Shown: positions 6,880-60,892 of the stretch, piece after piece | Layout of the letters: the number at the start of each line of letters is the position of its first letter | Position numbering within the stretch: the first letter of the stretch is position 1 | NCBI GenBank assembly: GCA_019247515.1 | Contig: JAFAOS010000529.1 | Span: 1 to 64,000, forward strand | From: Chloroflexota bacterium | GTDB lineage: Bacteria > Chloroflexota > UBA6077 > CF-72 | DNA: 64,000 nucleotides | Reading direction: 5' to 3' | Notes under the pieces: generated by a model | What the model saw: only the letters and a program-made list of their open reading frames with translations | What the model was told of the DNA's origin: nothing | Databases searched by the model: none | Made by a program: the position numbers and the translations under genes

Positions 6880-7375
6880 TGACCAGGTCTGCTGTCTGTT
6901 CGGAGAAGAATTGCCGGCACTGCGAAATATGGCGGCCATAAACGTGAGCTAGCGCCCTCTCCACGAACGCAGGTTCAGTGATTCCACCTACGGTGGAGCC
7001 CTTCGAGAGGTTTTTCGTCGACCTGCTACGGTGGAGCCCTTCGAGAGGTTTTCATCGACCTGATAACGGGCTGCTGACGAAGATCTGCTTCTCTGCAGAG
7101 AAGATTTGTCGGCACCGCGAAAGGTGGCGGCCACAAGCGGCAGCTAGCGCCCTGTCGACGAACGCAGGTTCAGTGATTCCACCTACGGTGGAGCCCTTCG
7201 AGAGCGTTCCAGCAACCTGCTACGGTGGAGCCTTCGAGAGGTTTTTCGTCAACCTGCCAACGGCTTGCTGACGAGGTCTGCTTCTCTGCAGAAAAGAATT
7301 GCCGGCACTTCGAGAGGTTTCCATCAACCTGCCACCTTGAGCCCGTCGAACGGTTTCATCAAGCTGCTGAGGCCT
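6880..7375 (+). repeat. Family 1 compound hairpin repeat cluster (two main copies plus truncated copies)
   Basis: Repeated core ...AGAAGAATTGCCGGCACTGCG...GGCGGCCA.AA.G..AGCTAGCGCCCT...ACGAACGCAGGTTCAGTGATTCCACCTACGGTGGAGCCCTTCGAGAGGTTTT. Confidence 0.85.
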
Positions 7376-17147: not shown

Positions 17148-17435
17148 ATGAAAAACGTCCCGCAGGGCTCCACCGTAGGTGGATTCACTGAACCTGCGTT
17201 CCTCAGCGGCGCGCTAGCTCACGTTTGTGGCCGTCACCTTCCGACGTGGCGGCAATACTTCTCTGGAGAGAAGCAGACTGACAGGCAGGTGATGAAAAAC
17301 GTCCCGAAGGGCTCCACCGTAGGTGGATTCACTGAAGCTGCGTTCCTCAGCGGCGCGCTAGCTCACGTTTGTGGCCGTCACCTTCCGACGTGGCGGCAAT
17401 TCTTCTCTGGAGAGAAGCAGATCAATTCAGCAACG
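17148..17435 (-). repeat. Family 1 compound hairpin repeat, tandem pair (144-bp period), opposite orientation to the other clusters
   Basis: Two copies starting at 17148 and 17292 (ATGAAAAACGTCCC...CTCCACCGTAGGTGGATTCACTGAA...CTTCTCTGGAGAGAAGCAG), 3 mismatches over ~129 nt. Confidence 0.92.
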
Positions 17436-20941: not shown

Positions 20942-21258
20942 CCTGACAGGTTGCTCAAAAAATCTGCTTCTCTTTAGAGAAGAATTGCCGGCACTGCGTA
21001 AGCTGGCGGCCACAAACGTGAGCTAGCGCCCTCGGACGAACGCAGGTTCAGTGATTCCACCTACGGTGGAGCCCTTCGGGAGGTTTTCATCAACTTGCTA
21101 AACAGGTTCCTGAAAAAAGGCTGCTTCTCTTTAGAGAAGAATTGCCGGCATTGCGTAAGCTGGCGGCCACAAACGTGAGCTAGCGCCCTCGGACGAACGC
21201 AGGTTCAGTGATTCCACCTACGGTGGAGCCCTTCGGGAGGTTTTCATCAACCTGCTAA
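20942..21258 (+). repeat. Family 1 compound hairpin repeat, tandem pair (157-bp period)
   Basis: GCTTCTCTTTAGAGAAGAATTGCCGGCA at 20966 and 21123; both continue to GGTTCAGTGATTCCACCTACGGTGGAGCCCTTCGGGAGGTTTTCATCAAC. Confidence 0.93.
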
Positions 21259-35828: not shown

Positions 35829-35929
35829 TTCCCCAGAGGGGACCCAACGGGATAGCGCGAACGGGAGTTTCGCTGCCTGAGACGGCACGGATCCGGGCGG
35901 CAAATCTCCGGCGGGACCCCAATGGGGAA
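35829..35929. repeat. Family 3 TTCCCCAGAGGGGACCC repeat, short cluster with inverted end copy
   Basis: ttccccagaggggaccca (35829) ... gggaccccaatggggaa (35913-35929). Confidence 0.65.
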
Positions 35930-39345: not shown

Positions 39346-39353
39346 GCCCTGTC

Positions 39354-39475
39354 GATGTGAGACCTTCCTCTGTCACTACACGTGTTGACAGGGAGCGATG
39401 TGAGACTTCTCTCTTACTACACGTGTTGACACTGGCGACGTTAGACCCTCACCTCTCACTTCACGTGTTGACACG
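39354..39475 (+). repeat. Three tandem ~40-43 bp units each ending in CACGTGTTGACA
   Basis: gatgtgagaccttcctctgtcactacacgtgttgaca / gatgtgagacttctctcttactacacgtgttgaca / gacgttagaccctcacctctcacttcacgtgttgaca. Confidence 0.85.
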
Positions 39476-39556
39476 GCCTGTCGTCCTGAGCGATCGCGAA
39501 AACTCGCGCCTCTTTGCGAAGGCAGAGAGTTATTGGGACACGCGGTCGTTCGACCC

Positions 39557-52982: not shown

Positions 52983-53367
52983 TTCCCCAGAGGGGACCCA
53001 ATGCCGTTTGCGACGGTGTATTCCCCAGAGAGGACCCTGTAATGTTGGGGCGGTATTCCCCAGGGGTGACCCAGTGCCGTTTGGGACGGTTTTTCCCCAG
53101 AGGAATCCATGGGTCCAACACCCGCCACGGCGATGAAACTCCTCATCGTGAGGGTCGTCACAAGAGGTCTCGACAGACATTTTCGTGGGAGGGGACGCAC
53201 GCTCGGAAGGTATTTTCCCAGATGGGCCCCGCCGGTGTTGCATCCCTTCGGAACCGCGGACCCTGGGTGGCAGATTTGTTCATCAGATTGTCCTCACGGG
53301 ACCGCGCAAACCCTCGGGGGTCCCGTCTCGGGAATCCGGTCCAACCCCTGGGTCCCCTCTGGGGGAA
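52983..53367. repeat. Family 3 TTCCCCAGAGGGGACCC cluster bounded by an inverted copy
   Basis: Direct copies at 52983, ~53022, ~53065 and ~53093; inverted TGGGTCCCCTCTGGGGGAA at 53349-53367. Confidence 0.8.
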
Positions 53368-57363: not shown

Positions 57364-58287
57364 GTGAACGCCTATATCGCCCGCCGCGTCCTGGCGACCA
57401 TTCCCGTCCTGTTCGGCGTCTCGCTGCTGGTGTTCCTGATGCTCGAGCTGGTGCCCGGCGACCCGGCCCAGCTGATGTTGAGCGAATTCCAGACCAACCC
57501 GGAACAGATCGCCCGCCTCCGCTCGCAGCTGCACCTCGACGATCCGCTGCCGGTGCAGTTCGGCCGTTTCGTCTGGGACGCCATGCACGGCGACCTGGGC
57601 ACCTCGATTCGCACCCGCCGCCCGGTGTTGCAGGAGATCCAGGACAACTTTCCATCCACCATTGAGCTCGCGGTCGCCGGCCTGGTAGTGGCCGCCATCA
57701 TGGGCGTGGGCTTCGGCATCGCCGCGGCGGCCAATCAGGGCACGTGGCTGGAACTGGGCTCGATGACGGTGGCGTTGATCGGCATTTCGATGCCGAGCTT
57801 CTGGCTGGGACTCCTGCTCATTTTTTCGCTCTCGCTGCGCGTGCCCGTCTTCCCGGCGACCGGCGGCGGCGACCTGCAGCACCTGATACTGCCCGCGATC
57901 ACGCTCGGGCTTGGCGCCGCCGCCATCCTGGCGCGCCTCACGCGCTCCAGCATGCTCGAGATCCTCCGCCAGGAGTACGTCACCACCGCGCGCGCCAAGG
58001 GCCTCGCCGAGTGGGCGGTCATCTTGCGCCACGCGCTCAAAAACGCGCTGATTCCGGTGGTCACCATCTTTGGACTCCAGTTCGGCCAGTTGCTGGCGGG
58101 CACCGTGGTGGTTGAGACGGTCTTCGCGCGGCCCGGACTTGGCCGACTGATCATCGACGGCATCCTGAACAAGGACTTTCCCATGGTGCAGGGCGTCGTG
58201 CTGGTGATCGCCGCTTGCTACGTGGTGGTCAACCTGCTGGTGGACCTGGTGTACGCGGTGCTCGATCCGCGCATCCGCTACACCTGA
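57364..58287 (+). CDS. Peptide/nickel-type ABC transporter permease (DppB-like)
   Basis: VNAYIARRVLATIPVLFGVSLLVFLMLELVPGDPAQ...QEYVTTARAKGLAEWAVILRHALKNALIPVVTIFGLQFGQLLAGTVVVETVFARPGLGRL. Confidence 0.95.
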   Translation: MNAYIARRVLATIPVLFGVSLLVFLMLELVPGDPAQLMLSEFQTNPEQIARLRSQLHLDDPLPVQFGRFVWDAMHGDLGTSIRTRRPVLQEIQDNFPSTIELAVAGLVVAAIMGVGFGIAAAANQGTWLELGSMTVALIGISMPSFWLGLLLIFSLSLRVPVFPATGGGDLQHLILPAITLGLGAAAILARLTRSSMLEILRQEYVTTARAKGLAEWAVILRHALKNALIPVVTIFGLQFGQLLAGTVVVETVFARPGLGRLIIDGILNKDFPMVQGVVLVIAACYVVVNLLVDLVYAVLDPRIRYT

Positions 58288-58289
58288 CG

Positions 58290-59126
58290 GTGCTCGGGAC
58301 CAATCTGCGGCGTTTACTGCGCAACAAGGGCGCGGTGTTCGGCCTGGTCGTTCTCGGCATCATGATCGGCTCGGCGGTGCTTGCGCCGCTGCTGCCGCTG
58401 GCCGATCCGATCCAGATCGACTCGACACACGCGCTGTACAGCCCGGGCACGCCGTTTCTGTTTGGCAGCGACCAGTATGGTCGAGACGTCTTCAGCCGCG
58501 TGATCTATGGTGGGCGCATCTCGCTGCTGGTAGGCCCGATTGCCGTGGCAATTGCGCTGGTGCCCGGGGTGACCATCGGGCTGGTGGCGGGTTACTACGG
58601 ACGCTGGCTCGACTCGGTGCTGATGCGGGTGATCGACGTGATGCTGGCGTTTCCCGGGATTTTGCTGGCGCTGGGCATCGTCGCCGTGCTCGGTCCGAGT
58701 CTGACGAGCCTGATGATCGCCGTCGGCATCGCGGCGATTCCGACCTATGCGCGGCTGACTCGCGCGTCGGTGCTCTCGGCACGCGAGAACCTGTACGTCG
58801 ACGCGGCGCGCGTGGTCGGCGCCCGCGATTCGGCGATCCTGTCGCGGCATATCCTGCCGAATATCGTGGCGCCGATCATCGTGGTGAGCACGCTGGGCGT
58901 CGGCGCGGCGATCCTGGTGGCCGCCACGCTCAGCTTCCTGGGCCTCGGCAGTCAGCCGCCCACGGCCGAGTGGGGCCGAATGCTGAGCGAGGGCCGACAG
59001 TACCTGCGCGAACAGTGGTGGATCGCCACCTTCCCTGGAGTAGCGATCATGCTGACGGTGCTGGCCCTGAACCTGCTGGGCGACGGCCTGCGGGATGCGC
59101 TCGACCCCCGGCTCCTGGATGCATGA
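58290..59126 (+). CDS. Peptide/nickel-type ABC transporter permease (DppC-like)
   Basis: VLGTNLRRLLRNKGAVFGLVVLGIMI...FGSDQYGRDVFSRVIYGGRISLLVG...LGLGSQPPTAEWGRMLSEGRQYL. GTG start at 58290. Confidence 0.94.
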   Translation: MLGTNLRRLLRNKGAVFGLVVLGIMIGSAVLAPLLPLADPIQIDSTHALYSPGTPFLFGSDQYGRDVFSRVIYGGRISLLVGPIAVAIALVPGVTIGLVAGYYGRWLDSVLMRVIDVMLAFPGILLALGIVAVLGPSLTSLMIAVGIAAIPTYARLTRASVLSARENLYVDAARVVGARDSAILSRHILPNIVAPIIVVSTLGVGAAILVAATLSFLGLGSQPPTAEWGRMLSEGRQYLREQWWIATFPGVAIMLTVLALNLLGDGLRDALDPRLLDA

Positions 59127-59137
59127 CAAGGAGTTGT

Positions 59138-59636
59138 TTCCCCAGAGGGGACCCAGTGGGAGACGTCATGTGTTCCCCAGAGGGGACCCGGCGGGAGATG
59201 GAGTGTTTTTCCCCAGAGGGACGCCAGTGGGAGACGTCATGTGTTCCCAGAGGGGACCCGGCGGGAGATGGAGTGTTTTCCCCAGAGGGACGCCAGTGGG
59301 AGATGTCATGTGTTCCCCAGAGGGGACCCGGCGGGAGATGGAGTGTTTTCCCCAGAGGGACGCCAGTGGGAGACGTCATGTGTTCCCTAGAGGGGACCCA
59401 GTGGGAGATGTCATGTGTTCCCCAGAGGGGACCCGGCGGGAGATGGAGTGCTTTTCCCCAGAGGGACGCCAGTGGGAGATGTCGTCTGTTCCCCACAGGG
59501 GACCCAGTGGAGACGTCATGTGTTACCCAGTAGGCGACGTACTGCGTCCCCTGTGAGTAAGTGATGAGTCTTCCTCCGAGGGGAACCGTATGGTGAACTG
59601 TTGAGAATATATCCCCCCTGGGTCCCCTCTGGGGAA
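59138..59636 (+). repeat. Family 3 tandem array: ~12 units of ~35 bp alternating between two subtypes, plus an inverted end copy
   Basis: Unit starts at 59138, 59173, 59209, 59244, 59278, 59313, 59348, 59383, 59418, 59454, 59489, 59523(degenerate); inverted TGGGTCCCCTCTGGGGAA at 59619-59636. Confidence 0.95.
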
Positions 59637-59656: not shown

Positions 59657-60892
59657 ATGCGGACCCTGATCTATCCCGAATGGTTGATTGACGGCACCGG
59701 CGCGGATGCACTCGGTGGCTACGCGCTGGCGTTTGGCGAAAGTGGGCGGATCGCGGCGGTGGCTCCAGCGAGCCAGGTGGCGGAGGCCGCGGCTGACAGC
59801 GTCGTGCGCGCGCCTGGAATGACGCTGCTGCCAGGGCTGATCAACATGCACGTCCACCTCTCGCTGGCCAGCGACAACGCGCCGTTCATCCCGTACATGG
59901 ATGCCCACTCCGACGTGGCCCTTGGCCTGCGCGCCGCGCACAGCGCGGCAGCCTCGCTCCAGGCGGGCGTCACGACGCTGCGCGATTGCGGCTCGCGCGG
60001 ACGCAGCGTGCTGGATCTGCGCGCCGCGCGCGCGGAGGGCCTGCTACACATCCCGCGCGTGCTGGCCGCCGGCCACGCGCTGACCATCTCCGGCGGTCAC
60101 ATGCGACCCTTCGGCGGCGAGGTGGACGGCGTCGACGGCGTGTGCCGAATGGTGCGGCAACTGGTGAGTAACGGCGCCGACTTCATCAAGATGGCCGGCT
60201 CGGGCGGCGGCACGCCCGGCAGTCTGACCGACTACCCGAGCTTTTCGATCGCGGAGTTCCAGGCAGCGGTAGAAACAGCGCACGGACTGGGTCGTCGCGT
60301 GACGGTCCACTGCACCGCGGCCGCCGCCATCGAGCGCGCCGTCTCGGCGGGAGTCGACAGCATCGAGCACGGCTATTTCGGCGCGCCGGGCAACTTCCAG
60401 GCATACGATGCGCGCCTGGCCGACCAGCTGGCGCAGCAGCGGGTGTCGGTGACGCCCACGTTGCAGGTGTTTCGCGACATGGCCGAGCTTCTCCCGGCTG
60501 GAGCGGAGCGAGACTTCTGGCAGAGCCGGCGCGAAATCCTGGTGACGAACGTAGGCCGCCTGCACGCCGCCGGAGTACAACTGACGGCCGGCTCTGACGC
60601 CGGTTGGCGCTTCACCCGCTTCGACAACTACGCCCGCGAGCTCGAGGAGATGGCCAGCGCCGGACTCTCGGCGCTAGAGGTGGTCCACGCCGCCACCGGC
60701 GCCGCCAGTCAGGCGATCGGTCGGGAGGCGGAGTTCGGCACGCTGCGGCCTGGCCTGAGCGCCGACCTGGTGCTGGTCGACGGCAACCTCGCCGAGGACA
60801 TTCGTCACGTTGGCTCAGTGCGCCGCGTGTACGTGGAGGGCGAGCTCATGGCCTCTCCCACTCCCTCTCCCTCTGGGAGAGGGCAGGGGTGA
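59657..60892 (+). CDS. Amidohydrolase family protein (imidazolonepropionase/prolidase-like)
   Basis: GMTLLPGLINMHVHLSLASDNA...GVTTLRDCGSRG...VTVHCTAAAAIERAVSAGVDSIEHGYF...AGSDAGW...GTLRPGLSADLVLVDGN. Confidence 0.94.
   Translation: MRTLIYPEWLIDGTGADALGGYALAFGESGRIAAVAPASQVAEAAADSVVRAPGMTLLPGLINMHVHLSLASDNAPFIPYMDAHSDVALGLRAAHSAAASLQAGVTTLRDCGSRGRSVLDLRAARAEGLLHIPRVLAAGHALTISGGHMRPFGGEVDGVDGVCRMVRQLVSNGADFIKMAGSGGGTPGSLTDYPSFSIAEFQAAVETAHGLGRRVTVHCTAAAAIERAVSAGVDSIEHGYFGAPGNFQAYDARLADQLAQQRVSVTPTLQVFRDMAELLPAGAERDFWQSRREILVTNVGRLHAAGVQLTAGSDAGWRFTRFDNYARELEEMASAGLSALEVVHAATGAASQAIGREAEFGTLRPGLSADLVLVDGNLAEDIRHVGSVRRVYVEGELMASPTPSPSGRGQG

Follow-up and report, generated by a model that had tools for sequence, protein, structure and literature searches.

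We found that the repeat block between a permease gene and an amidohydrolase gene of a soil Chloroflexota bacterium is probably a member of a genus-restricted, dispersed family of REP/REPIN-like palindromes that has been amplified locally together with its flanking DNA. The element proper is a core of 17-18 bp, usually present as a singleton or in a short cluster, and the array at this locus stems from local duplication. The block lies near the end of the window, by which we mean the whole stretch of 64,000 nucleotides that was analysed.

Architecture of the repeat block

The permease and amidohydrolase genes share a strand, with the block between them. Both gene names come from reading the translations.

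58215 to 59126, plus strand: upstream gene, the longest open reading frame, an ABC-type dipeptide/oligopeptide permease
59138 to 59522, plus strand: tandem array of 11 clear units of 34-36 bp, each beginning with the core TTCCCCAGAGGGGACCC or a near variant
59138 to 59154, plus strand: first, gene-proximal core copy, exact, 11 nt past the TGA stop (59124-59126) of the permease gene
59523 to 59619, plus strand: degenerate twelfth unit and unrepeated interior DNA
59620 to 59636, minus strand: inverted core copy GGGTCCCCTCTGGGGAA, an exact 17-mer that closes the element, 20 bp ahead of the ATG at 59657
59657 to 60892, plus strand: downstream gene, an amidohydrolase-like protein

An earlier sequence-only reading had counted about 12 units of roughly 35 bp, which agrees with the 11 clear units (starts at 59138, 59173, 59209, 59244, 59278, 59313, 59348, 59383, 59418, 59454 and 59489) and a poor twelfth that begins at 59523. 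TRF called a period-35 array at 59138-59538 (11.4 copies, score 459) and gave a better score, 531, to a period-70 call at 59130-59538. The subtypes follow one another in the order A B A' B A' B A' A B A' A, A' having GGGACGCC in place of GGGGACCC. The alternation of A and B with a higher order of about 70 bp, as first described, is real through the first seven units and broken after unit 7, where units 8-10 start again with A-B-A', as units 1-3 do. A CCCC-AGA-GGGG hairpin had been assigned to every unit; the four A' units and units 4, 8 and 11 have an altered stem or loop, and the others carry it. The inverted copy before the amidohydrolase start was correctly recognised. Core matches with up to 3 mismatches number 21 in the whole window, compared with 0.18 expected from shuffles.

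Local duplication best explains the array, because no other locus shares its spacer and the DNA ahead of the first core resembles the tail of a B unit. This likeness, between the flank GGAGTTGT and the tail GGAGTGTT, is expected if flanking DNA was duplicated. A coding repeat was rejected, as most of the unit lengths (34-36 bp) cannot be divided by three and the open reading frames that overlap the array look spurious.

The core is predicted to fold in RNA as UCCCC-AGA-GGGGA at -7.1 kcal/mol, and none of 100 shuffles folds as well as the array together with its inverted end. Good folding is trivially expected of any repeat that has inverted copies. An effect of the predicted RNA fold (z -5.2) on the permease-amidohydrolase pair is plausible. 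No known RNA family was found in the window. Intrinsic terminators along the array were also rejected, since no T-runs lie behind the plus-strand cores and the two overlapping terminator matches are at the inverted end only.

Copy number and spread of the core

The 8.3-Mb genome contains 342 matches to the core at up to 2 mismatches, compared with 10 for a reversed control, and within the 0.97 Mb sampled for context no 12-mers are more over-represented than those of the core (88 seen against 0.21 expected). Part of this sample was chosen for its repeats, and 0.59 Mb of it was picked regardless of them. Only 7 of the 128 core matches in the sample fall inside predicted genes. It is extremely improbable that the array is a pure slippage minisatellite of local origin with no wider meaning. 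Its 35-bp unit and its A/B subtypes do exist at the permease-amidohydrolase locus only, but hundreds of core copies lie elsewhere with fixed placement and orientation, and the count of 342 against 10 refutes this explanation.

The family is restricted to one genus. At up to 1 mismatch we counted 260 copies in the source genome, 63 in G001 and 7 in G002, a comparison of three species of that genus with one genome each and with fragmented assemblies (510-680 contigs); the remaining 58 of the 61 genomes of the phylum contributed a single stray match. This appears to be an undescribed REP-like family in Chloroflexota, strongly expanded in one species. The loop in G002 is mostly GGA rather than AGA. 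A search of the genome and its relatives for the core, as the sequence-only reading had proposed, therefore returned many copies in three species, together with a consistent inverted end; absence of both would have spoken for a private product of slippage. Arrays of this kind were not seen in genome contigs of other species, nor in viral contigs, and a viral origin was rejected.

When 150 copies are profiled, the bases from TT through ACCCA are conserved, a GGG a short way beyond is less so, and no upstream position is strongly conserved. Changes in the stem are mostly one-sided, 51 against 1 that is Watson-Crick-compensated. Compensatory evolution of the core stems, tried as a signature, was essentially absent. 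With nearly all of them one-sided, the stem changes lend no support to selection on the core hairpin itself.

Placement behind stop codons

Core copies are strongly associated with gene ends. Among the outermost copies, 35 of 50 have, on their TT side, the stop codon of an open frame of at least 100 codons at a distance of 0-22 nt, compared with 4 of 50 on the other side and with a background of 222/3426 for random positions. The copies in G001 (3/7) and G002 (5/14), few as they are, tend likewise to stop-proximal placement. With genes called by a simple codon-bias caller, so that distances to start codons are approximate, a core was near 21 of 352 gene ends versus 6 of 348 gene starts. Convergent intergenic regions carry a core in 12 of 95 cases and tandem regions in 18 of 342 (together 30/437), whereas none of the 96 divergent regions does.

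Such placement could also be read as that of a host 3'-end signal, a terminator or RNA-processing hairpin which is not mobile, which arose and was kept behind genes by selection, and which was duplicated locally. The tight 0-22 nt spacing, the lack of copies in divergent regions, the same position in both sister species and a terminator-like match at the inverted copy (59616-59634) fit this reading. However, conservation of the 17-mer far exceeds what a hairpin needs, most copies have no T-run behind them, some cores are near gene starts, copy number differs widely across the sister species, and compensatory stem changes are nearly absent. Overall we regard a host signal as quite unlikely.

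Orientation and arrays at other loci

Two further loci in the window carry the core.

52983 to 53366, no single strand: second cluster, with four plus-strand cores then two minus-strand cores, and an inner module at 53095-53191
35829 to 35929, no single strand: third locus, with one plus-strand core and one diverged minus-strand core, 84 bp from start to start

The order of cores follows a strict rule. Both orientations are present in 14 of the 42 sampled loci, with plus-strand cores first, minus-strand cores last and TT ends pointing outward, and the reverse order, minus then plus, occurs at none of the 42. The other 28 loci have one orientation only at up to 3 mismatches, being single copies or one-orientation arrays. 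About one in four of the observed loci has an array of at least 3 evenly spaced cores, with periods elsewhere such as 25, 27-28, 31-32, 35-37, about 80 and 84 bp (range 25-84). Spacer DNA differs from array to array, each locus having its own; outside the core, the 35-bp unit has a best match elsewhere of 78%. The proposal of a defined element rather than simple slippage is accordingly upheld for the core, which is found genome-wide and obeys the inverted-end rule at all 42 loci, but it fails for the 35-bp unit and its A/B subtypes, which are private to the locus and owe their array to local duplication.

A dispersed module of about 98 bp, with the consensus CCCCAGAGGACTCCATGGGTCCCACACCCGCCAGCGGCGATGAAACTGTTCCCCTTGTGGGTCGTCACTAGAGGTGTCGACGGACATTTTCGTGGG (window 53095-53191, plus strand), is found inside many of the core-bearing regions. 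Of its 18 copies in 0.97 Mb, 15 have a core no more than 300 bp away, and the module and the adjoining cores usually point the same way. This module folds better than column-shuffled alignments, and its covariation term (+0.85) lends no support to a structure.

Also considered was a non-autonomous DDE-type MITE, of which the core would be the terminal inverted repeat cut by the transposase of a parent IS, and the tandem cores would be iterated ends of the foldback or BrickBuilt kind. The plus-to-minus order, the lineage-specific presence, the 98-bp module common to the surroundings of many cores and the BrickBuilt precedent (PMC4596501) all favour such an element. Nevertheless, 15 bracketed loci showed target-site duplication no more than expected by chance (shared words averaged 1.2, versus 1.06 with shuffled partners), with a lone candidate, TCAGCTGA, at L070 only. 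Moreover, most loci have one orientation, interiors vary from locus to locus, and among the exact copies listed no plus-to-minus pair is 0.7-6 kb apart and able to bracket a transposase gene. A MITE is a possible but unlikely explanation.

Other repeats in the window

Several further repeats were observed in the same window. The dispersed palindrome CTCTCCCAGAGGGAGAG is present at 60865, 60947, 19480, 19516 and 45731, with 53 matches at up to 2 mismatches in 0.97 Mb; it is abundant in G001 too, where one copy lies at an orthologous gene end that bears the core in the source genome (L056:12499). A third dispersed repeat, GGGCTCCACCGTAGGTGGA, has 10 matches in the window (3985, 6983-7178, 17165-17309, 21056-21213, 32174 and 41255), partly in tandem duplications of 38, 144 and 157 bp, and single copies in some other contigs. 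The palindrome TAGGGGAGACCCCTAC (39217, 39313, 49864 and 62766) has 11 matches at up to 2 mismatches in 0.97 Mb. Finally, a 41-bp tandem repeat has three copies at 39353-39476, and its CTACACGTGTTGACA part was found nowhere else in the 0.97-Mb sample.

Gain or loss between sister species

At the permease-amidohydrolase junction the source genome has 530 bp from stop to start, whereas in G002 the stop and the ATG are 8 bp apart and the junction reads ...GCGTGTGAGGCCCCGATGCG... At a second locus (L056:5375-5624) the core is missing from G001, where the convergent intergenic region is short. These empty sites are between species, which are only about 70-80% identical in DNA. The block was thus gained or lost in a lineage-specific manner. 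Insertion in the source lineage is the simpler reading of the empty junctions, and deletion in the sister is possible.

Proposed origin of the array

We propose that the spreading unit of the REP/REPIN-like family is the hairpin core TTCCCCAGAGGGGACCC(A), or an inverted pair of cores with a variable interior, and that it may be mobilised by a transposase acting in trans. The core would land, or survive, within a few bases downstream of a stop codon, its TT end turned toward the gene. Replication slippage or unequal crossing-over, made easy by the strong hairpin, may then copy the core and adjoining DNA head-to-tail, and such local duplication would give rise to locus-private arrays with periods of 25-84 bp. 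Once transcribed, the hairpins would fall within the 3' portion of the upstream gene, and they could act as has been proposed for REPs, either by protecting the mRNA 3' end or by causing partial termination between the permease and the amidohydrolase.

Comparison with known systems

REPs lie less than 20 bp from the 3' ends of open reading frames, mostly in convergent or unidirectional regions, and can be reiterated in tandem with flanking DNA (PMC3733652). The family described here likewise consists of many short extragenic palindromes dispersed through the genome, which are found near the 3' ends of genes and rarely in divergent regions and which form inverted dimers and clusters reiterated with their flanks. 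Unlike the GTAG- and CGTC-tagged superfamilies of REPs (PMC3733652), it has a stem of only 4-5 bp and only the plus-to-minus order within a locus. No conserved GTAG or CGTC tag was found within 20 bp on either side in the profile of 150 copies. A search of the source genome (G000) for a RAYT-type Y1 transposase (PF01797) gave 5 candidates, none above the cut-off, with a positive E. coli control, in an assembly that is 93% complete and may thus miss a gene. Three Y1 transposase loci, L045 in G001, L046 in G004 and L047 in G003, had no core nearby. The family is REP-like in behaviour but of unassigned kind; it is not classed as REP because neither the tag, nor a RAYT-type transposase, nor a target-site duplication was found.

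REPINs are inverted pairs of REPs, some of them in ordered tandem arrays that include flanks (PMC3116915). Our family shares with them the inverted pairs of a REP-like core around a spacer and the occasional ordered array with flanks, but its pairs are often about 85-500 bp apart with locus-specific interiors, many copies are single, and no RAYT partner was found. Its strict polarity toward stop codons with no recognised mover makes it well suited to the questions of what mobilises REP-like repeats in the absence of RAYTs and how hairpin repeats become tandem arrays inside operons. Conceivably, though we doubt it, the family is a novel class of mobile palindrome in prokaryotes, distinct both from REP/RAYT systems and from MITEs with target duplications, which inserts directly behind stops with fixed polarity and builds foldback-like iterated ends by amplifying its own terminal module.

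The BrickBuilt MITE of Porphyromonas gingivalis also has a tandem minisatellite in a short element with inverted ends that is always intergenic (PMC4596501). However, the tandem unit of BrickBuilt is separate from its terminal repeats and common to all copies, whereas in the array described here the core itself is iterated and the spacer is private to the locus. The foldback-like Galileo transposons of Drosophila (PMC3573991) are eukaryotic and much larger, and the likeness is in layout only: their inverted ends, too, are built of internally repeated sequence.
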